This document shows, one piece after another, positions 25,974 to 62,998 of a DNA stretch of 64,000 nucleotides. This DNA is from Candidatus Mycoplasma haematominutum 'Birmingham 1'. GTDB taxonomy: Bacteria > Bacillota_I > Bacilli_A > Mycoplasmatales > Mycoplasmoidaceae. Each line of letters begins with the position of its first letter. The first letter of the stretch is position 1. The notes beneath the pieces are model-generated. The model saw only the letters and a list, made by a program, of their open reading frames with translations. It did no database searches and was not told the DNA's origin. Location of the stretch: assembly GCF_000319365.1 (NCBI RefSeq), contig NC_021007.1, positions 248,001 to 312,000 of the forward strand. The letters are read 5' to 3'. The translations under genes were made by a program, and so were the position numbers.

Positions 25974-25998
25974 CTAAGGTTGTAGGATTTTAAGAGGG

Positions 25999-26015
25999 GG
26001 GGGCTTTTAGCCCCC
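25999..26015. terminator. GC hairpin between convergent genes
   Basis: GGGGGC-TTTTA-GCCCCC, a perfect 6-bp stem, lies between the plus-strand unknown gene and the atpG end. It can serve both directions. The 5' arm is part of an 8-G run (25996-26003). Confidence 0.6.
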
Positions 26016-38086: not shown

Positions 38087-39082
38087 CTATGATACAGAAC
38101 TAATGCAACTCTTTATATCTTCTCACTTCAACTCTCGCTTTCTAGTTTTTTCATGCAACTTCTCTAGTGAACATGGATCGGTATTATCTCTTGAAGGTGA
38201 ACTCAACTTATATGGAATGGGTCAATTAATCTTTAGGGAGTAATTTTTATTGCCTCCATTATTGCTGGAGGGAATTTCCTTCAATTTTTTATATGAAGAA
38301 TAGTCAAAAATTCCATAATTGATACGTCCGCTTAAAGTTCCAGACTGTAACTTCTCCTTGGTTAATGATGCGGAGGGTGTAGTTTCAGCTGTTTGAGTAA
38401 CTACTGTAGTAGAAGTTGAACCATTTAACTTAAGCTCAAGATCAACAATAATTGGAGACATTAAACAATTTTTTGATCATTTTTCTGAACCTAAAAATAA
38501 TTCTTTCACAACCTCAAAAGCATCAGACTTAGAAATCTTGCATGCATTTGCAATTTTCGTAACAGCACCATTGCTGCTTTTATTCTCTTGCTGTGTATTT
38601 TTGTCGTACAGTACAAACATATTAGCTACATGCTGCACCTCTAGATATTTAGTAATTGTTTCTAGTAGATAGGAGGCTACTCCTGACTCTAGTTGATTCT
38701 CACTACTTCCTACAGAAAAATATTGAAGCTCACATTTTGGACCAGTTGTTTCAGCACTTACAGATGTTTGCGGTTCCGAAACAGTTTTCTTCAACTTAGA
38801 ACTATCAGAAATACATCACTTGTATTTAGAATAATTCCCTAATTCCGAAAGTGGTACTTGAGCCACTAGATCGGCTGTGCCGTTTTGTTGACTTCCTCCA
38901 TTATTTTTTATAAATAGTTTGACTCTCGAATAGAGACCGTGAAAGGTTGAAGACTCTCAACCAGTAATATTTAGTCTTCCCTGAGAACTCAGTGCAAAAA
39001 TACTAAGTATTGGAATTGCGGCCAACACAGTTGCGAAAGCAGCCCCCCCCTGCCACTGGCTAAATAACTCTCAAAAGCTCAC
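38087..39082 (-). CDS. Surface-family II paralogue, third of three
   Basis: 331 residues, GTG at 39080-39082. The N-terminus MSFWELFSQWQGGAAFATV has Gly codons in an 8-G run (39043-39050) that keeps the frame open. Shared features with the two genes upstream: RLNITGWESSTFHGLYSRVKLF, VQHVANMFVLYD, LTKEKLQSGTLSGRINYGI. Ser/Thr/Asn-rich linkers in between. A basic C-terminal tail is gained only if TGA is Trp. A hydrophobic stretch near residues 16-34 can serve as signal or anchor. Function unknown; probably an exposed protein. Confidence 0.72.
39043..39050 (-). repeat. G8 run in family II gene 3
   Basis: Eight G on the coding strand, at codons 10-13. Frame is open with 8. A one- or two-base change would truncate the protein within about 20 residues. 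Confidence 0.95.
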
Positions 39083-39084
39083 TA

Positions 39085-40053
39085 TTACCTAGCTGAGGTG
39101 AAGCAGCTAGAAAGTGCTGAAATACTTAACTGTTGTTCCATTACTCGTGCGTGAAAAGCATTGAGTGAGCATTGCTCTAATGTTGAGTCTGAAAGTGAAT
39201 AAACAATTGGTCAATTAACCTTAACTGACACTCCCTTTTGATTACTACTGGACTTTACTAAATTAGTAGTCCAGTAGTCAAAAATACCATACTTTAAAAC
39301 ACCAGATAAACTTCCACCAGCTAGCTTCTCCCTAGTTAACGCACCTATATCCTCAGAGTTGGTTGAGGTTGGGAGTCTCAAATTAAGTTCTACAGCAGTC
39401 GGGGAAGGAAGACATTTTTTAGCTTTAGCTATAGAGTGCAGAAAAAATTCCCTTACAACATCTCTATCTTGAGCGGAAGAGATACTGCAATCTCGACTCA
39501 ACTGCTTTAACTTGGAGCTAGAGCCTGAAAAATTTACCTTATCATCATAAAACATGACCATATTAGCTGCGTGCTGAACAGAAATATACTTAGTAGTTAA
39601 GTCAAGTAGATAATTTAATACCTCTTCCTTTAAATCGCTGGTACTTGTAGAGGGGGAAATGAGTTGACAAGTGGGAGTTTCCGTACTTGCAACTTGCTTG
39701 GCCTCCACTTTTGCCTTTAAGTTTGAAGAATTTGGTAAACAGTACCTATATCTAGAGGCAATTCCAAAGTAGTTTAGCGGCACCTCCACAATTAAATCAG
39801 GAACTTGACTTTCTGAACTTTTGCCCCCCCCTGTGCTAGTTTGGACGATATCGGAACTTGATTGAGGTGTTTTGATATTTTTTAAAAAAAGCCTAACCCT
39901 AGAATAAAGACCATTTAAAGTTGGAAGTGTTCAACCATTGACGACGAGCTGAGGTGTTTCTGTTTTCGAAAAATGTAATAATAACAGGGGTAGGACTAGT
40001 CCACTAAAGACTCCTCCAACTTTTCAAGCCTGGAGTCATTCCAGAAACGACAC
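39085..40053 (-). CDS. Surface-family II paralogue, second of three
   Basis: 322 residues, GTG 40051-40053. Hydrophobic N-terminus (GGVFSGLVLPLLLLHFS). LVVNGWTLPTLNGLYSRVRL, VQHAANMVMFYD, KKCLP and LTREKLAGGSLSGVLKYGIFDY align with its neighbours. Its 8-G run (39824-39831) lies further inside, in a Thr/Ser/Gly linker (TSTGGGKSS), in frame. The stop TAA is 2 bp from the start of the next paralogue, so the three are one operon. Confidence 0.72.
39824..39831 (-). repeat. G8 run in family II gene 2
   Basis: Eight G on the coding strand, in the Thr/Ser/Gly linker; in frame. Confidence 0.95.
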
Positions 40054-40071: not shown

Positions 40072-41247
40072 TTATCGTTCCTTTTTAGTTTCTTTATTTT
40101 TAAGGTAGTGACACAACCTCAATGATCTATCTGTATACTTTTGCCAGAGCTGTTCAAAATTTCTAGGCTTACTATCATCGCTATTTGAAGTTGTAGAATT
40201 GCAACCATCACTGCTATCGCTAGGTTCGGAGAGAGTGTAATTCAGTATTAATGGGACCTCGATTAACACAGGTTCTTTTTGCGCACTTTCATTTCCTCCA
40301 TGGCGATTTACTTGCTTGACATTTCCCCAATAATCAGTAAGACCATAGGAAAGTTGACCTCACAATTCTCCATTTTTAATCTTTTCCTGGGTAATAGAGC
40401 TAGAGGTAGTGGATTCAGAAGAAGCTACAGTTGTAGCTGTACTGGATTTCAATTTCAGATAAATTTCAACTAATAGGGGAAAGGGTAGACACTTTTTCAC
40501 CTTCGCTGTTGAGGTTAAAAGCATTTGCTGGGCTAAAGTGGAGGTAGAGTTGGCCTCTCCTGCAGTGTCGGATTTGAAACCGCATTCTCCATTCACTTTA
40601 GATAAGTCATTGCTACTTGCAGTTGAACTGCTAGCAGAATTCTCCTGTTTTTTGGCGTGAAATAAATAGATCATATTTACCTGATGCTGTAATCTAATAT
40701 ACTTAGAAGCTAGTTCTAGGAGGTATTTGATTGTCTCTGGATTGCCCGAGGTATTCTTGCTCTCTCCAGAACTACTGCTGGAAGATCATTTTTGCAACGA
40801 ACACTCTCCAGATGATGCACTTTCAGTAGAAACTGCAGCCTGAACTTGCACTTGAGTGGTAGTGGTTAAGGGAGATGAAGTAGGCAAACAATATTCTCAA
40901 TTAGACAAATTTTCTATAGAAGTTAAGGGCATTTTGGCAACTAAAGCTAACTTGCTATTCAAAGAGGAGCGGCTTCCTCCTGCTTCGGCAGAAACCTGTA
41001 CTATCTCATAGGATTTACTAACTTGACTGCCCCCCCCTGAAGTAGAGGTAACGGAAACTGCTGCAGGCGTTCCTGCAGCACTACTCTCATCGATTACAAA
41101 TAATTTGATATAAGAGTTAACGCCTTCTGGCTTTGATCAGTCAAATTGTTTCCCAGTAAAAAGTAGAAGGCTAGAAAGGGGAAGGAGTGAGAGGCTGACA
41201 AACGAGAGTTCCCTTCAATGCTGCGCAAGCTCTCAAATTGCACTCAA
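40072..41247 (-). CDS. Surface-family II paralogue, first of three
   Basis: 391 residues, TTG 41245-41247. N-terminal segment LSLLPLSSLLLFTG is hydrophobic. Shared motifs: GVNSYIKLFVID, LQHQVNMIYLFH, VKKCLPFPLLVEIYLKLK and ITQEKIKNGELWGQLSYG. An 8-G run (41030-41037) encodes Gly in a TSTSGGGSQ linker, in frame. The longest of the three because of Ser/Thr-rich insertions. Likely promoter in the AT-rich 41248-41357 gap beside tRNA-Trp. Confidence 0.7.
41030..41037 (-). repeat. G8 run in family II gene 1
   Basis: Eight G on the coding strand, in the Ser/Gly linker; in frame. Confidence 0.95.
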
Positions 41248-47582: not shown

Positions 47583-48194
47583 ATGGTATTTTCCAAATAC
47601 CTATTTGCGACTATAGCTGGTCTCGCTGGTGGAGTTAATTGATTAGCCTTTAGCCCCTTGGGGGGGGCCTTAATCCAGCAGGAATTGCAAAACTATTCCG
47701 GGGAAATAGACAACTCCTCTAGGGAGGGAGATTCTCTAGTCTCTCGAGAAGAAGGTAGACTGAATAAAGAACGACAAGAATCATCGACTAAGTTTAAAAA
47801 TTTAGAAGATGAAAATGAAAAAACCAAGGATAAATCTAGAAGCAGGAGATCAGCCGGTGAACAGTTGAGTAAGGAAGATCATAACTTGAAGCTCTCTAAC
47901 TATAAACATAACAGTGAATTAAATAGTACAAAAAATAAGCTAGAGGCGAAATTGAAAAGCAGTACTGACAGTTTCAAAACCTCCCTAGAAGCTAGTGTTA
48001 AGACAGCATTTCAAGAAGTTAAGTCCAAGGTGGATGAAGAAACTAAAAGGCTTGAGGATGCTTTAAAGACCCTGCAAAAATCTAACCAGGAATTAATTCA
48101 AAAAGTTAGAACATGTATAGAAAATCTACCTCAAGAGATATTTGTAACTAAGCCTGAAGAAAGCAAGTGCCTGTATGATAGTCAAAAAACTTAA
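47583..48194 (+). CDS. Surface-family I paralogue 1
   Basis: 203 residues, ATG start. Signal peptide VFSKYLFATIAGLAGGVNW, then SPLGGAL encoded by an 8-G run (47660-47667) in frame. Family pattern: charged helical middle, KSRSRRSAG motif near residue 80, second helical part and C-terminal NQELIQKVRTCIENLPQEIF. One TGA-Trp lies in the signal peptide. First gene of a ten-member tandem array; function unknown, probably secreted or surface-bound. Confidence 0.75.
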
Positions 48195-48199
48195 TTTAC

Positions 48200-48844
48200 A
48201 TGGTTTTTACTAAATATTTATTTACAACAATAGCAGGACTTACAGGAGGGGTTAATGCATTAGTCTTCAATTCCTCGGGGGGGGCGACGATCGGACAAGA
48301 AATTCAGGACTTTGAAAGGGAGATATCTGATAGTGACGACTCTAATTCAGACTTAATTACTAGGGAATGTGATCGTTTAAATAGGGAGAAGGTTGAAGCT
48401 GAGAAAAATTTCAGCCAACTAAATGATCAAAATGAGAGTACTAAAGCAAAATCTAGGCAACGTAGAAGCGCAGGAGAAGAGTTAACTAGGGAAAACTATC
48501 AACTTGATAGGCAGGCAAGAGAAAGTAATCAATCTCTAGAGAGTAAACAGAAGGAACTACAGGAAAAATTAAATAGTGATACAAAAAGTGCTAGCGAAAA
48601 AGTACAAGAAAAAGTTCAAAAGTTATTTCAAGCTCTTAAAACTTCAGTAGATAGAGAAAATGAGAAATTATCAGAAGCTCTTAAAAATTTAACAGAATCA
48701 AATCAAAAATTAATAGAAAAGGTAAAAAATTGTATTAATGAGCTACCACAATCAATCTTCGTGGATCCTAAAAAGTTAGAAAACAAAAGTTACTGCGATT
48801 ATGTGGAAGAACAAAGACAAGCTAAAGACTCTAACTCAAGTTAA
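48200..48844 (+). CDS. Surface-family I paralogue 2
   Basis: 214 residues, ATG, 5 bp after paralogue 1. Signal FTKYLFTTIAGLTGGVNALVF, 8-G run (48277-48284) in frame encoding SGGA, motif KSRQRRSAG, and C-terminal NQKLIEKVKNCINELPQSIF, then a tail with KSYCDYVEEQ shared with paralogues 4 and 6. Helical, with heptad-like spacing between the motifs. Confidence 0.75.
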   Translation: MVFTKYLFTTIAGLTGGVNALVFNSSGGATIGQEIQDFEREISDSDDSNSDLITRECDRLNREKVEAEKNFSQLNDQNESTKAKSRQRRSAGEELTRENYQLDRQARESNQSLESKQKELQEKLNSDTKSASEKVQEKVQKLFQALKTSVDRENEKLSEALKNLTESNQKLIEKVKNCINELPQSIFVDPKKLENKSYCDYVEEQRQAKDSNSS

Positions 48845-48939
48845 CTTTTTCAAGACAGCCACTCTCCTTTGGAGGGGGAAAGTATAACAGAATTAATCCA
48901 GGTAAAATGACTTCAAAAATTTGTTAATCTTTACCTAAA

Positions 48940-49557
48940 ATAATTTCTACAAAATATTTATTTGCAACAATTGCAGGTTTAACTGGAGGAGTAAATGGAT
49001 TAGCCTTCAGCCCCTTGGGGGGGGCGTTAATCAGCAAGGAGCTGAGTTCATATTCTGAGGGCTTAGACTCCGATTCTCAAAATAGAGAGAGTCAACTCAA
49101 TAAAGAAAATGAGAGAATTATTGAAGAACAAAAAACCTCTGAGTCTAAATTTAAGGAATTGAATGATAAAAACGAAGAGACTAGGGGGAAATCCAGAAGT
49201 AGGAGGTCTGCAGGAGATTCTCTGCAATCTGAAAACTACAAACTAGACTCAGAGAGGAGAAGCCAAAACTTTAAACTAAATGCTCAAAAGACAACGCTTG
49301 AAAATAGCCTAAAAACGACTCTTGAAACTTTCAAAACTGGAATTAAGGAAAAAGTACAGACTTTAAGAACAGAGGTTAAAAAAATAGTAGATGAGGAGAC
49401 TGATAAACTTTCTAAAGCTCTTGATAACCTAAAAGAATCTAATAAGCAGTTAATACAGAGAGTGAAAGAATGCATAGAGAATATGCCATATGAAATATTT
49501 AAGGAGAAGGAAGAAGATAGAAAATGTAAGTCTCCAGTCGCTGAAGGGAAGTCTTAG
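48940..49557 (+). CDS. Surface-family I paralogue 3 (ATA start)
   Basis: 205 residues if ATA 48940-48942 is the start; paralogues have ATG, GTG or TTG at this position (ISTKYLFATIAGLTGGVNG). 8-G run 49017-49024 in frame. Motif KSRSRRSAG and C-terminal NKQLIQRVKECIENMPYEIF are conserved. The gene is expressed only if ATA is accepted; otherwise it is silent through loss of its start. 95 bp separate it from paralogue 2. Confidence 0.65.
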   Translation: MISTKYLFATIAGLTGGVNGLAFSPLGGALISKELSSYSEGLDSDSQNRESQLNKENERIIEEQKTSESKFKELNDKNEETRGKSRSRRSAGDSLQSENYKLDSERRSQNFKLNAQKTTLENSLKTTLETFKTGIKEKVQTLRTEVKKIVDEETDKLSKALDNLKESNKQLIQRVKECIENMPYEIFKEKEEDRKCKSPVAEGKS

Positions 49558-49561
49558 TTAG

Positions 49562-50200
49562 ATGATTTTCACTAAATATTTATTTACTGCGATAGCTGGA
49601 CTTACAGGAGGAGTTAATGCATTAGTCTTTAGTTCCTCGGGGGGGGCGTTAGTTAGTCAGGAATTACAGCAATTTGAGAATGAGTTAAGAACCAATTTAG
49701 AGAGTGGAGATAAATTAATAGAAGGTGAAGATAAGAGACTTGCACAGGAAAAGCAGACGGCTGAAGAAAATTTCAGCAAGTTAGATACAGAAAATAAGAA
49801 CACTCAAACTAAATCTAGAGCCAGAAGAACAACGGGAGAAGAGCTGCAGAAAAGTGACTATGAATTACGATTGAACCAGATAAAGCAGAACGGTGCACTC
49901 GAAGAAAAGCGAAAATCTCTACAGTCTACTCTTGACTCCAAGGTAAGCGAATTTAAATCTAAGTTAGAAAGCGGTGCGAAAGAAGCATTCTCGACTGTCC
50001 AAAAAGCTGTACAGGAAGAAACTCAAAAATTAAGTGAAGCACTTGCGAAGCTTCAAGAATCGAACCGCCAATTGATTGAAAAGGTAAAAAATTGTATTGA
50101 ACAGTTGCCTCAATCCATTTTTGTTGAGGCTAGTGAACTAAAGGGAAAAAGCTACTGTGATTATGTTGCTGAACAAAAGTCGAAAACGGCTAAATCCTAA
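49562..50200 (+). CDS. Surface-family I paralogue 4
   Basis: 212 residues, ATG, 4 bp after paralogue 3. Signal IFTKYLFTAIAGLTGGVNAL, 8-G run 49639-49646 in frame. Motif KSRARRTTG. C-terminal NRQLIEKVKNCIEQLPQSIF and tail KSYCDYVAEQ as in paralogue 2. Followed by a perfect hairpin terminator. Confidence 0.75.
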   Translation: MIFTKYLFTAIAGLTGGVNALVFSSSGGALVSQELQQFENELRTNLESGDKLIEGEDKRLAQEKQTAEENFSKLDTENKNTQTKSRARRTTGEELQKSDYELRLNQIKQNGALEEKRKSLQSTLDSKVSEFKSKLESGAKEAFSTVQKAVQEETQKLSEALAKLQESNRQLIEKVKNCIEQLPQSIFVEASELKGKSYCDYVAEQKSKTAKS

Positions 50201-50213
50201 TTTTTTCTGCTTT

Positions 50214-50232
50214 CTAGCCCTTTTAGGGCTAG
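50214..50232 (+). terminator. Hairpin after paralogue 4
   Basis: CTAGCCC-TTTTA-GGGCTAG, a perfect 7-bp stem, ends 17 bp before the next gene. It divides the array into at least two transcripts unless read through. Confidence 0.6.
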
Positions 50233-50249
50233 ATTCTTATTAATCCTTA

Positions 50250-50867
50250 GTGGTTTTTACTAAGTATTTATTTACAGCAATAGCTGGACTTACTGGAGGG
50301 GTTAATGCATTAGCCTTCAGTCCCCTGGGGGGGGCGTTAGTTACTAGAGAATTAAAAGAAATGGATAGTGAATTAGACTCTAACTTCTCTATGAGAAATG
50401 AACTTATAAAAACTGAATCTGACAGATTATCTTCAGAAAAGAATAAGTCTGAGGAAAGCTTTAGGCAACTGGAAACTAAAAATACAGAGACTCAGGGTAA
50501 GTCTAGGATGCGAAGAGCTGCTGGTGTAGCACTGTCAACTGAAGACCAAAAATTAAGGGTAACGCAACATAAATCTAACTATCAATTATCTGAGAAAAAA
50601 CATAAATTAGAGAGTAAATTAAGTGAAACTACTCAGACTTTAAAAACTACTCTTGAAGATAATGTCACAAAATCTTTTCAAGAAATTTCTCAAGTAGTAA
50701 AAGCTGAAAGTTCAAAATTGGAGGAAGCGCTCAAGACATTACAGGCATCTAATCAAAAGCTAATTCAAGAACTTAAAAAATGCCTAGAAGAAATGCCGCA
50801 GGCTATTTTCAAGCCTGATCAAGAGTGATGCCCTGCTACATCCAGTATGCGTTCCTCCACAGTTTAA
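50250..50867 (+). CDS. Surface-family I paralogue 5
   Basis: 205 residues, GTG. Signal VFTKYLFTAIAGLTGGVNAL, 8-G run 50327-50334 in frame, motif KSRMRRAAG, C-terminal NQKLIQELKKCLEEMPQAIF. The end reads ...DQEWCPATSS with Trp by TGA; paralogues 7, 8 and 9 have the same TGA-TGC ending, which supports the reassigned code. Confidence 0.75.
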
Positions 50868-50915
50868 TAGAATTCAAAGACCTAATTATTTAAAGTGATG
50901 CTTTAATTAGAGTTT

Positions 50916-51557
50916 TTGATCTTTACTAAGTACTTATTTTCCGCAATAGCTGGACTTACCGGAGGAGTTAATGCTCTAGTCTTTAGCTCCTCGGGGGGGG
51001 CGTTAGTTACTAGAGAGTTAGAAAGCTTTTCGACTGAATTAGAAAATAGCTCAACTCAAAGTGATGGTCTCATTGCAGGAGAAGCTGAGAGATTAGATGG
51101 AGAGAAAAAAGAATCAGAATCAAACTTTAAGAAATTAGAGACTCAAAATGAAGAGACTAAATCAAAATCTCGGGCTAGAAGGGATGCGGGAAATGCTATG
51201 AAAGGGGTGAATGACAACCTTAACTCAGAGAGACGCATTCAAGATAGAGCATTAAATGCTAAAAAGGATGAGCTGCAGTCAGCACTTGAAAAAGGCACTG
51301 CAGAAGTTAAGCAAAACTTAGAAAATGGTGTTAAAAAACTGTTTGAGACTGTTAAAGCTTCAGTAGATGCTGAGAATAAGAAGTTAACAACTGCATTGCA
51401 GAATCTTACAGAGTCTAATAAAAAATTAATTGAACGAGTTAAAAAATGTATCCAAGAAATGCCTAACTCTATATTTGTAGAACCAGATAAACTGAAGAAA
51501 CATAATGACAATTTCTGTGATTACATTAATGCTGAGGAAAAGAAAAAAACTACCTAA
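50916..51557 (+). CDS. Surface-family I paralogue 6
   Basis: 213 residues, TTG start at the position of the family's start codon (TTG-ATC-TTT-ACT). 8-G run 50993-51000 in frame. Motif KSRARRDAG. C-terminal NKKLIERVKKCIQEMPNSIF, tail with FCDYINAEE as in paralogues 2 and 4. A C8/G5 hairpin follows. Confidence 0.75.
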   Translation: MIFTKYLFSAIAGLTGGVNALVFSSSGGALVTRELESFSTELENSSTQSDGLIAGEAERLDGEKKESESNFKKLETQNEETKSKSRARRDAGNAMKGVNDNLNSERRIQDRALNAKKDELQSALEKGTAEVKQNLENGVKKLFETVKASVDAENKKLTTALQNLTESNKKLIERVKKCIQEMPNSIFVEPDKLKKHNDNFCDYINAEEKKKTT

Positions 51558-51572
51558 AGTAGCTGGTCTATT

Positions 51573-51590
51573 CCCCCCCCTATTAGGGGG
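51573..51590 (+). terminator. C-run/G-run hairpin after paralogue 6
   Basis: CCCCCCCC-TATTA-GGGGG can form a stem of at least 5 bp. The arm is itself an 8-C run. Followed by AAAGAATTG, not a T-run. Confidence 0.45.
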
Positions 51591-51633
51591 AAAGAATTGT
51601 ATTTTAAGGTAAAATAACTTCTACATTAACTTA

Positions 51634-52254
51634 GTGATTTTCACTAAATATTTATTTGGGGCCATAGCTGCTTTAACTGGAGGAGTGAATGCTCTAGTTT
51701 TTAGCTCCTCGGGGGGGGCGTTAACCTCTAAAGAACTAGAAGAACTGAATAGTGAATTAGGTACTGCTGAAACTAACCACAATGGTTTAATAAATAGTGA
51801 AAATAGTCGAATTAAGACTGAGGAGTCTAAGTCGGCTGAGAACTTTAAAAAACTAGAGAATGAGAATAAAAATACTAAATCTAGTTCACGGTCTAGAAGG
51901 GAAGCTGGAAACAATTTAACTAGGGCCAATGACAATTTAGTCTGACAGAATCTTACGCAGAATGCAGCTTTAGGTAGAGAAAAAACAAAATTACAGTCAG
52001 AATTAAATTCAAAAACTGAATCATTTAAAACTGAGTTAAAGACAAAAGTTCAAGCCTCTTTTAATGCGCTACAAACAGTAGTGAAACAAGAAACTGATAA
52101 ATTAGAAAGTGCACTTACAACCTTAAAAGAATCGAACCGTAAGTTGATTGATAATTTGAAAAAATGTCTCATAAAAATGCCAGAAGCTATATTTACTCCT
52201 GATCAAGATTGATGCCCTGAAACTCAACAATTTAGAGCTAACTCAGCTGCTTAG
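51634..52254 (+). CDS. Surface-family I paralogue 7
   Basis: 206 residues, GTG. Signal IFTKYLFGAIAALTGGVNAL, 8-G run 51711-51718 in frame, motif SSRSRREAG. An internal TGA (Trp) after NDNLV joins the two halves. C-terminal NRKLIDNLKKCLIKMPEAIF, then WCPETQQF with TGA-TGC. Confidence 0.72.
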
Positions 52255-52284
52255 TCTGTTGCCTAGACAAAATTAACTAGGTTA

Positions 52285-52911
52285 GTGATTTTCACTAAGT
52301 ACTTATTTACCGCAATAGCTGGACTTGCCGGAGGAATAAATGCTCTAGTCTTTAGCTCCTCGGGGGGGGCGCTAGTCACTGAAGAATTAAAAAATTTCTC
52401 AGATCAGTTAGAGGGTAATTCTACTGAAAATGATGGTTTAATTCAGAAAGAAAATGGAAGACTTCAAACAGAGAGAACTAAATCAGAGGCTAATTTTAAA
52501 AAACTAGATGATCAAAACAATGCAACTAAATCTAAAGCCGGTGAGAGAAAAAAGTCGGGAGAAAGCTTAGCTAGTGCAGATGTCCAATTAAGGGTAAAAC
52601 GAGTTTCTCAAGATTATCAATTGCAAACTAAAAAGCTCTCGATGGAGAAGACGCTAGCAGACAATAATTTGAAGATGAAGTCCTCTTTTGACACGAATGT
52701 ACAGACAGCTTTTCAGTCAGTGCAACAAACAGTACAAGCAGAAACTCAAAAATTAGAAACCGCCTTGACAACTTTAACTGAATCTAATAAGAAGCTAATT
52801 AGTGATTTAAAACAATGCTTGGAGAAAATGCCTCAATCTATCTTTGAGCCTGAAAAAGACTGATGCCCTGCAACTCAGCATTTAAGATCAACTGCTAAAC
52901 AAAATAACTAG
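52285..52911 (+). CDS. Surface-family I paralogue 8
   Basis: 208 residues, GTG. Signal IFTKYLFTAIAGLAGGINAL, 8-G run 52362-52369 in frame. The basic motif is altered to KAGERKKSG. C-terminal NKKLISDLKQCLEKMPQSIF and a WCPATQH-like tail by TGA-TGC. Followed after 6 bp by a small membrane-protein gene. Confidence 0.73.
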
Positions 52912-52917
52912 GAGTTT

Positions 52918-53094
52918 ATGGTGAACTTCTGAGTTTCTCTACTTAGATCAATTATTCTTGCAATTGCAAAACGACTTATTTTGTCCAAAATTATCTCCCT
53001 ATTAACTAAAAGAAGATATAAGAAACAGCAACTTAAAAAATCAAAGAGCGAGCCCATTGAGGTAGTTGCTGCCCCTGAAAACGCTTCTATTTAA
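52918..53094 (+). CDS. Small basic membrane peptide inside the array
   Basis: 58 residues, ATG preceded by AGGAG. Hydrophobic N-terminal half (SLLRSIILAIAKRLILSKIISLL; one Trp by TGA), then a Lys-rich stretch KKQQLKKSKS and an acidic end. Unlike the surrounding family, no signal-peptide motif and no G run. Not recognised. Confidence 0.5.
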
Positions 53095-53134
53095 ATTCAT
53101 CTTGCGAAAGATTTAAACCTCTCCACTAAATCCT

Positions 53135-53766
53135 GTGATTTTCACTAAGTATTTACTGACTTCTATTGCTGGGCTTGCGGGAGGAGTTAATGCATTAGCC
53201 TTCAGTCCCCTGGGGGGGGGGCATTAATTACAAGAGAACTAACAACCTATTCAGGGGAATTAGAAAATATCTCTAGCGAGGGAGACGCTCAACTAGAGGG
53301 AGAGAATGAGAGGATTTCAAGTGAACAGGCAACTTCGACAGAAAGCTTTCAAAAATTAAACACTCAAAATCAGGAAGCGAAAGCTAAATCTAGAACTAGA
53401 AGAGAGGCGGGAAACGATCTCATATCTAAAAATTCAGCACTCAATCTTCAATCCTATCAGCAGCAGTCAACTTTAAACCAAAAACACTTAGAATTATCCA
53501 AAAGTTTGCAAACTTCAACTCAGGAATTTAAAACCCAACTAGAAGAGCAATTTAAAAATTATCACTCTCAGTTAAAAAATACTGTCTCTTCAGAGACCCA
53601 AAAGCTAGAAGACGCTCTCAAAAAGTTACAAGACTCTAATACTCAGTTAATTCAAAGAGTTAAGTTATGTATTGAAAAAATGCCTGAATCCATTTTTGAG
53701 GAAATTCCGCAGGGAAAAGACTGATGCACTCATCTACATGAAAAACAGCAAAAGGCCTCTTCTTAA
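53135..53766 (+). pseudogene. Surface-family I paralogue 9, frameshifted at a G10 run (phase-off)
   Basis: GTG 53135 begins the family signal IFTKYLLTSIAGLAGGVNAL. The G run (53212-53221) is ten bases, two more than in every other in-frame member. Translation therefore reaches TAA 53225-53227 after 30 codons. The remaining frame is intact to TAA 53764-53766 with the motif KSRTRREAG and C-terminal NTQLIQRVKLCIEKMPESIF. With 8 or 11 G it would be open. This looks like a switched-off but repairable gene. Confidence 0.85.
53212..53221 (+). repeat. G10 run causing frameshift
   Basis: Ten G at the position where seven intact array members have eight that encode GGA after the signal peptide. Confidence 0.93.
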
Positions 53767-53809
53767 CAATAAACTCCTCACCTTAATTTAGGGAAATGCT
53801 GGTCATTCT

Positions 53810-53824
53810 CCCCCTTCTAGGGGG
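53810..53824 (+). terminator. Hairpin after paralogue 9
   Basis: CCCCC-TTCTA-GGGGG, 5-bp GC stem, followed by AAATAG. The G side extends to eight G. Confidence 0.4.
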
Positions 53825-53926
53825 GGGAAATAGTTTAAAAATCCATCTAAACTTTTTTAATTAGAGGAGGCGTACGCAACCAAAAATACTTCAAACAAAC
53901 TCTAATACTTAATTTTTCACCTATTA

Positions 53927-53948
53927 TTCCTCCCCTGATGGGGAGGAA
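53927..53948 (+). terminator. Perfect 9-bp hairpin
   Basis: TTCCTCCCC-TGAT-GGGGAGGAA in the 250-bp spacer 53767-54017, which otherwise holds no gene I can support. It may separate paralogue 10 from the rest. Confidence 0.5.
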
Positions 53949-54017
53949 CTAATTACTACCTTAATTAGACCATAATGCCTCTATGTATAATTCATTTTTT
54001 GAGTCTCTTTGCGCTAG

Positions 54018-54614
54018 TTGATATACTACAAATACTTATTTGGAGCTATAGTAGGACTTACAGGGGCAATCAATGCCTGAGCTTTCAGCACCTCCTCCAA
54101 CTTCATGAATAAGTCACTAAATAGTCTCAATAGTGATTTAGATTCCCTATCAACTGCAGGGGATGGCTTGATTTCTGAAGAGTCGGCTAGACTATCAGCT
54201 GAAAAACAACAGTCGGAAAGGAAATTTAAAGCACTTGAAGCTTCTAATAGCTCTACTAAAGAGAAAGCCGGTGCGCGAAAAAATGCTGGTGACCAATTGC
54301 AACGAGCATCCTTAGACTTAGCTATTCAACAGTCTAGACAATCGGTGGAACTTTCTCGCAAGAGTAATCAATTATCAGCGCAACTAAATAATTCTACCTC
54401 TAGCTTGAAGGCAGAGCTCGAAACTAAGATACAAGCCTATCATTCTAAGTTACAAGCAGCTGTAAAACAGGAAACTGAAAAGTTGAATACAGCCCTAAAG
54501 AAATTACAAGACTCTAACTCTCAATTGATAGCCGAAGTTAAGAAAAATATAGAGGAAATGCCCTACAAGCTCTTTGAATTTGAGGCTCCAGAAACCAAAA
54601 TCCCTAAAACTTAG
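54018..54614 (+). CDS. Surface-family I paralogue 10 (no G run)
   Basis: 198 residues, TTG. Signal IYYKYLFGAIVGLTGAINAWAF (Trp by TGA) is aligned with the family but the following G run is replaced by CACCTCCTCCAACTTC (STSSNF). Motif altered to KAGARKNAG. C-terminal NSQLIAEVKKNIEEMPYKLF lacks the family Cys. The most divergent member; expression cannot switch through a G run. Confidence 0.7.
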
Positions 54615-58363: not shown

Positions 58364-59413
58364 TTATCCCTCTGAGAGTGTAACTGAGTTGGTAGAATCG
58401 CCCTTCAATTCCCTCATTTTATGCTGAAATTGTGCTATAAAACTGTGAAAGCTAGATTCTCATTTTTTTAAAGTTTCATATTTATCGTAAGTTACTTTTA
58501 ACTCTTGATTCTGACTATTTAATTCTTCTGTCTTGGTAGCTGCACTCTCACTAGTTTTCTGAATAGTTCTGTTAATTAGCTGTATATGAGTTTCAACTAA
58601 TTGAATCTTTGACTGTAATTTCAATCATTCAGGATAACGTTTTAACTCTTCTCAGATCAATTTCATAGCTTCTTGCTGTACCTGTAAATTAGCTTGAGAT
58701 ACTGACTGTTGTAGAGATTGAAATACCTTCTGAGCTGCAGCTAATGTTTGCTTAGCTTTTTCTCCCTCAGTTGATGCTCCTCCGTTTTGTACTGCAGTCT
58801 GCTCTGACGCCCCCCCCTCTGAAGAATTAGCTGAACTTAAAACACTGCTTAACAGGGTAGATGAAGTACGATTGCAATCTTGTTGACCATCTTCCTGTCC
58901 TTGTTGTTTGAATACGCAAATAACCGTATTCAATTGAGTTTCTCACTGCTTTAATCTCTCTACTAATTGATTTAGAGTGCCTTGAGAGACTTTAATCTGC
59001 TGAAATTGAGCATCCAAACCTAACTTTTCCTCAATAGTTGCTGAGAGAGTTTGAGATTCCTGCTGAAGGTTTTTTAACTTTTCTTCCATATGTTTATAGA
59101 GTTTCTGTAGTGCTTCTTCACTTGTAGCCAACTGAGCCATTAACTCTAGTGACTTCTTATGTTTATTCTCTTTTGCACTAGCTGTAAAGGTTTTAGATTT
59201 TTGAAAATCAGAAATCAATTTCGTTAACGCTGCTGTTGTTTCTGCTGCATGACTCTCAAGTCTCTGAAAATTTAAGTCTCTATCTCTCGACTCTTCCCCT
59301 GAAAATATAGTGCTTTCTCCCATAGAAGTTAATGAAGGTATAAAATAGGCTGATAATCCTCCTGAGGAGGCTAAAGTGCCTCCTCCTAACAGCAATCTGG
59401 AAAGATAAAACAT
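58364..59413 (-). CDS. Surface-family III coiled-coil protein, copy 2
   Basis: 349 residues, ATG 59411-59413. N-terminus MFYLSRLLLGGGTLASSGG is signal-like and matches the copy upstream. A long coiled coil follows (KLYKHMEEKLKNLQQESQTL), a linker SSEGGASEQ encoded by an in-frame 8-G run (58810-58817), and a second coiled coil ending with SSFHSFIAQFQHKM. Three TGA-Trp codons. Likely surface protein; not recognised. Confidence 0.68.
58810..58817 (-). repeat. G8 run in family III copy 2
   Basis: Eight G on the coding strand between the two coiled coils; in frame. Confidence 0.95.
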
Positions 59414-59417
59414 TTAG

Positions 59418-60356
59418 CTAGAAAGCTGCCATATTCTTTAGGTGATTTTTAAAGTCCTCACTGTATCTGTGGAAGCTAGACTCCATTAATTTAAGTCGAT
59501 TGTATTCATCGTGACTTTTTTTAAGTGACTCACTATTTTTATTTAGCTCTGCTGTAGTTTTAGTGGCATCTTTATTAGTAGTTTGAACAGTTCTGTTTAG
59601 GAGTTGCAGATACTGCTCTAGCCAGGTAATTTTTACATTAGAGCTTAAATAGTCTAAGTAATTTGCTCAATCTTTGCCAAATATCTGCAACTGTTGGCTC
59701 TTAAAACTAGAACTGACAGTTGAAATATTTTCCTTTATTTTCTTAAACTGTTCTTTAACTTCTTCTAATGTTTTTTGGGCTTTTTGGCCCTCTGTTTCTG
59801 TCGTCTGGCCAGTGCCCCCCCCCCCCGTGCTTGCTGAGTTCTCTGGTTTATGGTTCTCAAACTCTTGAATTACCTTAGAAATGTTATTCTCTCAAGAAGA
59901 TAAGAGCTGCAGGAGTGAGCTTAAGTTAGATAACACTGTCTTTAGTTGAGACAAATTTGACTGAAGTTTTAACTTATTCTCAACTTCGCTTGTTAATTCT
60001 TTCGATTTTTCTCCCATTGTCTTTAGTTTTTCCTGAATAACTTCATAAAGTTTCTTCAGATTTTCTTCATTTCCCTGAATTGCAGTCATTAGCGAAAGTG
60101 ACTTCTCGAATTCTCCGTTTTTAGATTTCTGGGCTTCCCCCTTGGATTGATCAAATTTAGAAATTCAATCATCGAGTTTTGTCTTCAACTCTTCCGTTAA
60201 GGTTTGCAATCTTTCCAAATTTACTTCATTAGATAAATCTGCATCAAAAATAGAGTTAGGGCCTGTAGAAGTTAAGAGGGGAGCGAGAAAGGCAGATAAT
60301 CCTAAAGAAGAAGATGCGGCACCTCCTCCTATCAAAAATTTAGAGAGAGAAAACAT
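59418..60356 (-). CDS. Surface-family III coiled-coil protein, copy 1
   Basis: 312 residues, ATG 60354-60356. Signal-like MFSLSKFLIGGGAASSSLG, coiled coil (KLYEVIQEKLKTMGEKSKEL), linker STGGGGTGQ in a 12-G run (59815-59826), second coiled coil ending MESSFHRYSEDFKNH. The layout and several motifs align with copy 2, 4 bp downstream. The frame is open with 12 G and would also be open with 9. Confidence 0.68.
59815..59826 (-). repeat. G12 run in family III copy 1
   Basis: Twelve G on the coding strand; the longest homopolymer in the window. In frame. Confidence 0.95.
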
Positions 60357-60605: not shown

Positions 60606-62054
60606 CTAAGTTCTTCTAGGTTTTCAGTTATTTACCTGACCTCACTCTCTAGCTAATTCATCCATGGTTTGTCCGATTCACTTAATCCTTTCTCAACGCG
60701 CACCGAAATGTCTCATATCCGTTAAGTTGAACTTATTGTATACATTCTTTCAATATCTTTGAGAATTTAAATTATCTCCAGAGTATCAGTCCGCAATTCA
60801 CCTTGCGAAATTATCTCTATATCTCCTGTCTCTTGAATTAGCTCCCCTATCTAGGTCATAAATATCTAGTAGGTTTCAAGCTCCAACTCTAGCTAAAGTT
60901 TGGTAGGTAATTTTATCGGGAGAGGCTTCTCCTGATAGCTTATATGTGTAAGCATATCAGGTCATCAAATTTAAAAGGAAGTTATCTCCTCACTTCAATT
61001 TAGGATCTAATCGTTTTTCAGCTTTATCTACAGAGAATCTATGTTTTCCCGCAAGTATTGATTTAACTTTACTGTTAGTTTTAACTTGGGTTTCAACCAA
61101 TGGTTTGTGATGTAGTCACATTCTGTAGGTTCTATCTTTATGTCATCTAGTTAAGATAGTTACCTCTGGATGATCTGCAGTTGCTTTAAAGTGATTGTTT
61201 TTGAAGAGAGCATATTCATTTCTAACTGGAACTTCACTAAGAGCTGAATCGCTCCAATCTCCCAATCATAGTCTTAATAACTTTTCTGGAGAGGTGACTA
61301 AATAGAGATGCGCATCAGGAGAAGCTCTCATTATCTTATTCAAGGTATTTTGAGCGATATACTCTTCTCTTTCATAACCTTTGGAATCAAGTATTCTCTT
61401 AAAGTTGTGAGATGAATCGGATAGTCCCTTTCAATTCATACTATGTTGGTCGAACTCAGTGGGTAGTGTGTCTCCATCTATCTTAATTCACCCCTTATCT
61501 AGAGAAGTTTGAACTAATCCTTCCGGTAACTTCAATTCTCTGGGAAATTCTACAGCAACATATGGGTAGTCATAATTCCAGAAAGGTAATTTTTCCCCTC
61601 CTGGTTTAAAGTAAGAAAATATCCCTTCAGAAGTATTGGACTTCCCTTCACTAAAGAACTTTTCTCATGCATCTAAAATAGACATATTTTGAGTTCCCCT
61701 AGGTCCTCCCTTCTGCTTTACTCTATTTCCCTGAAAGTCCTCCTCTTTAAGTGATAATGCTCCGTAAATCTTTCGAAATTCTTCTATGGGAACCGCTTTT
61801 TTCATATGTTCATAGAAGGCGTGATTTATAGATAATCCAGCTCAATTTGCTTCCGCAGCGTTAATTTTTTCAAAATCTATAGTATCTATTGTGGAGTGAG
61901 CCTCCCTTGTTCCTAGGTGAGGACTATATGAGTGCCCCCCCCTGCTGAAAGTATCTACTACGCCTAGGGAATAAATTAGGGGAGTCACAGTAGCTGAGCT
62001 AACTCCGGTAAAGATGAATGCATATTTTAAGAGTGCTGGGTACGTGAAAAGCAT
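60606..62054 (-). CDS. Hypothetical surface-type protein, Trp-rich
   Basis: 482 residues, ATG 62052-62054. N-terminal hydrophobic segment ALLKYAFIFTGVSSATVTPLIYS, then DTFSRGGHSYS encoded through an 8-G run (61935-61942), in frame. The body is rich in aromatic residues with about 15 TGA-Trp codons (RWHKDRTYRMWLHH). No coiled coil, unlike its neighbours. Its N-terminus resembles that of the frameshifted gene upstream (62112-62998). Not recognised. Confidence 0.68.
61935..61942 (-). repeat. G8 run in the 482-residue gene
   Basis: Eight G on the coding strand at codons 38-40, shortly after the signal segment; in frame. Confidence 0.95.
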
Positions 62055-62111: not shown

Positions 62112-62998
62112 CTAACTATTTTTAGGAGGAACTCAACTACCAATGATGACTATTTTGTCCTCTAACTCAGCTGAACTACTGGGGGGGGGCACCTCCTGTT
62201 TAATTTGAGGTCTGTACATCTGTCTACTTCAATCACAATTTTTAAATAAATCAGCAGCTAAGGTAAAAGAAAGATGATAATTTACATCTTCATAACCTCT
62301 CGTAAAAATAACCTTGACCTTTTCGGCTGAATTGACTGAAAAAGCTTCAAAGCGGTGCGAAGTTTGAACCACTCCTCTTAATTTACTCAACTCTCTTCCA
62401 AATTCTCACTTGGGACTAAAAAAGTAAGCTAACGCCTCCCTAATAGCTATAGAGTTTATCTTCTGCTGAGTTTCATTTTCACTAGTGTTATCTATTGTGA
62501 TTAATTGAGCTTTTTGCGCCGCATTAATATCAGCTGCTTCGAGATTAGACTTTACATCAGCTTCGCGAAGTGTAAATGAAACGCCCGGAAATTTTTCTTT
62601 TAGAAAGAGATAGAACGAATGTTTTGAGGGAAAGGTAAATGATAGGCTATCTAATCTTTCAAAAAATTCTTCCCCTAAATCGAAAAAATCCGTGGGAAAG
62701 TAGCGACTTGTCCAGTTACTCTCAGAGAAAGATATCTGTCTGTTTGGATGTAACATCTCCAGCGGAGAAAGCTTATTTTTCTCTAATATTTGAAGATCAG
62801 TGGAACTTCTAGAATAATTGCCTCTTATGGAGGGAAAGCTCCCGAATGTATATTCGTTAATTTCATTTTTTTTAGTTAAGGATTGCCCCCCCCTGAGGTA
62901 CTAGTATCTACAGTATGATAAATCAAAGGTGTAAGTCCTCCAGAAAAATATACTCCTAAGACTGAAATATATTTCACTATCCCTCCTAAACTAGTCAA
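62112..62998 (-). pseudogene. Surface-type gene frameshifted at a G8 run (phase-off)
   Basis: TTG 62996-62998 begins a signal-anchored N-terminus (KYISVLGVYFSGGLTPLIY) like the gene downstream. At the G run 62886-62893 the frame goes to GGGNP-stop. With nine G the frame would continue through QSLTKKNEINEYTFGSFPS to TAG 62112-62114, about 295 residues. The distal frame holds SFTFPSKHSFYLFLKEK and EVPPPSSSAEL, the latter with nine C on the coding strand (62181-62189). Confidence 0.75.
62886..62893 (-). repeat. G8 run causing frameshift
   Basis: Eight G on the coding strand; nine would restore the long frame. Confidence 0.93.

Follow-up and report, generated by a model that had tools for sequence, protein, structure and literature searches.

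In Neisseria, the opa genes carry CTCTT repeats in the leader-coding region, which switch translation on and off (PMC3960869). The opa loci number about a dozen at most. The phasome of Campylobacter rests on poly-G tracts that are mostly coding, have a mode of 9G/10G and affect 5-81 genes per strain, with 18-39 in C. jejuni (PMC6321876). Many Campylobacter switch genes encode surface modification enzymes, and the genomes are about three times larger than the one considered here. Mollicutes maintain multigene surface repertoires with on/off expression, which is combinatorial for Vlp of M. hyorhinis (PMC11868660). Vlp is controlled by a promoter poly-A tract, Vaa by a poly-A tract within the open reading frame, VlhA by GAA repeats and Vpma by DNA inversion.

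Unculturable and long-persisting, the hemoplasmas can give rise to cyclic bacteraemia, and surface variation in them is an open question. Their paralogous families of hypothetical proteins are expanded and have long been suspected of antigenic variation (PMC3196708, PMC3958358). One study found (G/C)n mononucleotide repeats to be enriched overall in blood mycoplasmas, with no gene-level analysis in the relevant passages (PMC4516964). We found no mention of G homopolymer tracts in the genome papers of M. haemofelis, M. suis, M. haemocanis and M. parvum (PMC3196708, PMC3091866, PMC3496576, PMC4423628); the announcement of the present genome was not covered, and priority is uncertain.

An array of ten tandem paralogues

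The window is the whole stretch of 64,000 nucleotides that was analysed, positions 248001-312000 of the single-contig genome (513,880 bp) of Candidatus Mycoplasma haematominutum 'Birmingham 1', a blood-cell parasite of cats. Window positions 47583-54614 hold ten tandem paralogues, all on the plus strand; runs in frame with the leader are designated ON and those out of frame OFF.

Gene 1: 47583..48194, plus strand, 203 aa, ATG start, G8 at 47660-47667, in frame (ON)
Gene 2: 48200..48844, plus strand, 214 aa, ATG start, G8 at 48277-48284, ON
Gene 3: 48940..49557, plus strand, 205 aa, ATA at the start position (next codon ATT), G8 at 49017-49024, ON provided that the atypical start is used
Gene 4: 49562..50200, plus strand, 212 aa, ATG start, G8 at 49639-49646, ON
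Gene 5: 50250..50867, plus strand, 205 aa (table 4), GTG start, G8 at 50327-50334, ON
Gene 6: 50916..51557, plus strand, 213 aa, TTG start, G8 at 50993-51000, ON
Gene 7: 51634..52254, plus strand, 206 aa (two TGA=Trp), GTG start, G8 at 51711-51718, ON
Gene 8: 52285..52911, plus strand, 208 aa, GTG start, G8 at 52362-52369, ON
Gene 9: 53135..53766, plus strand, leader with GTG start, G10 at 53212-53221, OFF
Gene 10: 54018..54614, plus strand, 198 aa, TTG start, without a G run

The initial annotation, made from sequence alone, had described ten plus-strand paralogues with a common leader and C-terminal motif, nine of them with a G run and eight of these runs exactly eight long and in frame. These claims held. 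The leader and the C-terminal motif are common to all ten genes (23 alignment columns are invariant, and the mean identity per column is 55%), an in-frame G8 stands straight after the leader in eight of them, the ninth run is a G10 and out of frame, and gene 10 has none. The placing of the run directly after the signal peptide had to be corrected to 25 codons after the start: codons 1-25 encode the hydrophobic leader (F/S)(T/S)KYLFxxIAGLxGGxN, and codons 26-29 of genes 1-8 read xxG GGG GGG GCx. In gene 9 the leader frame reaches a stop after 30 codons, and from 53221 onwards the frame of the body stays open over 181 codons. All genes start with ATG, GTG or TTG except gene 3, which, with ATA/ATT at the conserved start (window 48940), is possibly silent or poorly started at any run length. 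TGA encodes Trp in this genome, and genes 5, 7, 8 and 9 share, close to the C-terminus, a W encoded by TGA with C as the next residue; table 4 moves the ends of these four genes slightly downstream of the table-11 open reading frames (WCP/WCT...).

As genes 1-2 and genes 3-4 are only 4-5 bases apart, the members of each pair are possibly co-transcribed. A promoter scan returned 7 matches compared to 17.8 in shuffles, which is below chance, and the matches of a terminator scan were at chance level. For the array family AlphaFold2 predicts an N-terminal helix (4-21) followed by a helix of ~160 residues (25-185), with a mean pLDDT of 82 and a pTM of 0.35, and this two-helix model would therefore describe a rod or coiled coil. 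A Pfam search with an array protein gave only weak matches of coiled-coil type, all under the cut-off, and Foldseek gave no fold match for it in the PDB. That the array proteins are exported and located at the surface is inferred from the hydrophobic leader and the predicted long helix, in the absence of antibody or expression data.

Under free drift one third of the runs would be expected in frame, and the array, with 8 of 9 runs G8 and ON, lies above this expectation (p=0.001). We infer from these run lengths that the array genes were mostly on together in the sequenced population, and not one at a time.

G runs across the genome and the genus

The initial annotation had made the array the centre of a phase-variable repertoire, and missed that the same feature is present in more than 80 further genes outside the array family. 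The whole genome contains 134 runs of G>=8 (both strands counted). Our detailed reading covered 212 kb of the 514 kb, in three blocks picked where runs cluster, and found 121 G/C runs of eight or more compared to the ~0.9 expected for the same blocks under a dinucleotide model. The length spectrum of G/C runs in these 212 kb is bimodal: lengths six and seven are nearly missing (12 and 2 runs), lengths eight and nine account for 49 and 52 runs, and 20 runs measure 10-13. Coding sequence holds 93 of the 121 runs, which belong to 16 protein families and range in length from 8 to 13; a run was called coding when at least 120 open codons lay downstream, and families were formed by BLASTP clustering, singletons included. 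Leaders were called by hydrophobicity, and the states of 10 of the 121 runs were assigned or set aside by hand. Forty-nine coding runs are in frame with the leader (ON) and 44 are out of frame (OFF). Most families carry the run behind a hydrophobic leader 10-50 residues long, and in 11 genes it lies mid-gene, at codon ~176-205. Another 25 runs are without an open reading frame, and 11 of these look like G/C hairpins, which were left out of the switch count because they are probably terminators. The window holds the following coding runs outside the array:

G8: 39043..39050, minus strand, near the start of a family 9 gene, ON
G8: 39824..39831, minus strand, family 9, ON
G8: 41030..41037, minus strand, family 9, ON
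G8: 58810..58817, minus strand, codon ~198 in a family with a mid-gene tract, ON
G12: 59815..59826, minus strand, codon ~176 in a family with a mid-gene tract, ON
G8: 61935..61942, minus strand, behind the leader in a gene for a ~480-aa protein, ON
G8: 62886..62893, minus strand, after the leader, OFF, with the body open for 257 codons

Three side observations may be recorded here. Short intergenic hairpins with G8/C8, probable terminator stems, lie at 116300-116317 of the genome and at 51573-51580, 53820-53827 and 25996-26003 of the window. A/T runs of nine or more were seen once in the 212 kb compared to ~21 expected, as if slippage were avoided except at G runs. A family with a mid-gene run (codon ~200) occurs at 322-331 kb of the genome (L012) and in L035 and L043, its run is placed alike in this genome, G004 and M. 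ovis, and an OFF state would cost it the C-terminal ~140 residues, not the whole protein.

The bodies behind out-of-frame runs are intact and of family-typical length. In the largest family (26 genes) pN<pS holds in 144 of the 153 OFF-OFF pairs, and in the other families tested it holds in all such pairs. As permanently out-of-frame genes are not expected to keep pN<pS and intact bodies, the OFF genes appear to be still live. Across the whole set 49 of 93 runs are ON, above one third (p=1.5e-4), an excess that we take to fit expression being favoured at the time of sampling. Two features expected of translational phase variation are present: runs in coding sequence are long beyond chance, and in-frame and out-of-frame length classes stand over intact genes.

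Each of the six further genomes in the genus carries 75-186 runs of G>=8; counts elsewhere in the family and order are mostly 0-10, the exceptions being three genomes with 16, 37 and 21 (G007, G028 and G049). Two of the genomes compared, G004 and G005, we take to be Ca. M. haemolamae and M. wenyonii, respectively. Five of the six sister genomes contain homologues of the ten-gene family. Six copies in M. suis bear a run of eight or nine Gs at the leader junction, and three of these six runs are in frame, the others out of frame; all five copies in M. parvum and all three in M. ovis have an in-frame G8. None of the six G004 homologues that we read has a run, so the run is not essential to this family. 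From its presence at the same place in the copies of M. suis, M. parvum and M. ovis, though not in the six G004 homologues, we infer that the run has been kept by selection across species. Run-bearing homologues of families 1, 4, 5 and 9 likewise occur in sister species, and the G-run genes are likely to belong to the known paralogous families of hemoplasmas.

In G004 and M. parvum, G8 runs also lie inside genes for the type I restriction specificity subunit, hsdS, and four of these five runs are OFF:

L027:11442(-), G8 in hsdS
L028:2658(-), G8 in hsdS
L033:13637(+), G8 in hsdS
L050:10882(+), 15316(+), G8 in hsdS at each position

In hsdS of G004 the run lies between the two target-recognition domains. 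In other bacteria, genes of the hsdS type are a textbook target of phase variation, and the runs suggest phase-variable restriction specificity in these two species. The present genome gave no Methylase_S match. In the draft genome G002, 5 of 50 readable contig ends (C5, C8, C12, C17 and C37) fall within 40 bases of a G run, compared to 0.4 expected. As a sign of mixed run lengths these ends carry little weight, since poor coverage at G runs gives the same pattern.

Proposed slipped-strand switching and its rivals

The best explanation of the G runs, and in our view a likely one, is that they are slipped-strand translational contingency loci; this is well supported by inference, and no change of length has been observed. 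The initial annotation had proposed slipped-strand phase variation for the array, and the proposal is supported, much more strongly by the genome-wide data than by the array alone: by lengths of 8-13, 44 OFF genes with intact bodies, conserved position, the missing MutS and the hsdS runs. The array as its centre is weakened, and is indeed the least convincing part of the set, with 8 of 9 runs G8 and ON at the length expected to be slowest.

In the proposed mechanism, each gene would consist of a membrane-targeting N-terminal leader, 8-13 Gs and an exported, mostly unique body, which in the array family is predicted to be one long coiled-coil-like helix. Slippage during replication would add or remove Gs in the run. 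MutS was not found in any of the seven genomes of the genus by a search that was positive in 11 of 14 control genomes, and slippage should therefore stay uncorrected. At two of every three lengths the body would be out of frame and only a short leader peptide would be made (OFF), and at in-frame lengths the full protein would be made with extra glycines in a tolerant linker behind the leader (ON). If ~90 genes each switch independently, many combinations of surface proteins would result within one population. Switching rates in C. jejuni are ~0.004 for a G8 tract and 0.02 for G11 (PMC4965091); by comparison the array, being mostly G8, would be among the slower switches of the genome and the G9-G13 families would be faster. 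The runs, the places where they lie, the division of lengths into in-frame and out-of-frame classes, the intact and constrained OFF bodies, the conservation across species and the lack of MutS are shown. That length changes at a high rate, that OFF genes yield no protein, that the products lie at the surface and that the switching serves immune evasion are inferences, with one consensus sequence per species to draw on.

The alternative that survives best, although we consider it unlikely, is that OFF genes are still made through slippage of the RNA polymerase or ribosome, the run setting a low level of expression and not acting as a switch. Such leaky expression would equally yield intact bodies behind out-of-frame runs, and no test here excludes it. 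However, it leaves unexplained both the differences in length among paralogues and the excess of in-frame lengths.

Less probable still is that the runs reflect nothing but codon choice, a conserved Gly-Gly linker being encoded by GGG GGG without any switching. In its favour, the GG(A) residues are conserved, and 8 of the 9 array runs are equal in length and in frame. However, the other conserved Gly-Gly of the leader (GLxGGxN), ~30 bases upstream, is encoded by GGAGGA, GGAGGG or GGTGGA and by GGGGGG in none of the nine genes, whereas all nine use GGGGGG for the Gly-Gly of the run. The main Gly codon in the window is GGA (331 of 701), not GGG (114). Among the nine run-bearing genes the share of synonymous sites that differ is 56% for the leader and 74% for the body, and the run is identical in genes 1-8 despite this divergence, indicating that it was retained while neighbouring synonymous sites drifted. 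A coding choice would also not account for the 44 out-of-frame runs in the blocks read, nor for a run that is constant between species while the residues encoded around it change.

We regard it as equally improbable that the run lengths are sequencing or assembly errors and that the true lengths are all in frame. Homopolymers of eight or more are prone to error, and M. suis Illinois was sequenced by 454 (PMC3091866). However, the existence of the runs cannot be explained as an artefact, some families show a uniform run length (8 of the 9 array runs are G8) and others a scatter of lengths, and out-of-frame states also occur in the genomes of M. suis, G004 and M. ovis. Single ON/OFF states may nevertheless be wrong, as homopolymer miscalls are possible and the sequencing method is unknown; the runs and the structure of length classes are not in doubt.

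Finally, the proposal that leader and run form a recombination anchor for body swaps between paralogues, with slippage incidental, draws on the nucleotide identity of the array, which is 70-90% over most of the leader and ~30-75% past the run, and on the reported positional shuffling of paralogues between hemoplasma strains (PMC3958358), but is very unlikely given that the leaders are not homogenised (56% of their synonymous sites differ), that the run also occurs mid-gene and in unrelated families with unrelated leaders, and that frame classes would not matter to an anchor.

If the runs are slipped-strand switches, ~90 random on/off gene switches may help this parasite to hide from the immune system. 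Each predicted switch has a defined ON length class, so that sequencing of blood samples can test the prediction directly. In annotation about half of the G-run genes may be overlooked or split, and serological antigens taken from such genes may be missing in part of the population.

Comparison with known switching systems

A bolder reading, towards which we lean without pressing it, is that the genus places most of its exported proteins, from many unrelated families, under independent poly-G frame switches at one standard point behind the leader. On the same reading, and with the same reserve, this would perhaps be the largest known set of switches per genome size, and hsdS would be under like control in sister species.

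As with Vlp, Vaa, VlhA and Vpma, the G-run genes would form an on/off multigene surface repertoire in a member of the Mollicutes; none of these four systems is known to us to use poly-G after a leader or to span so many families. The resemblance to Neisseria opa lies in paralogous surface-protein genes that each have their own slippage tract in the leader region, but the opa repeat is a pentamer, whereas here the tract is mononucleotide G, with ~93 coding tracts in 16 families. The poly-G/C phasome of Campylobacter is similar in that ON and OFF are set by the reading frame and that the poly-G tracts are mostly coding. Unlike Campylobacter, however, the genes concerned here are mostly exported paralogues, in which the run has a fixed place after the leader and a modal length of 8-9.
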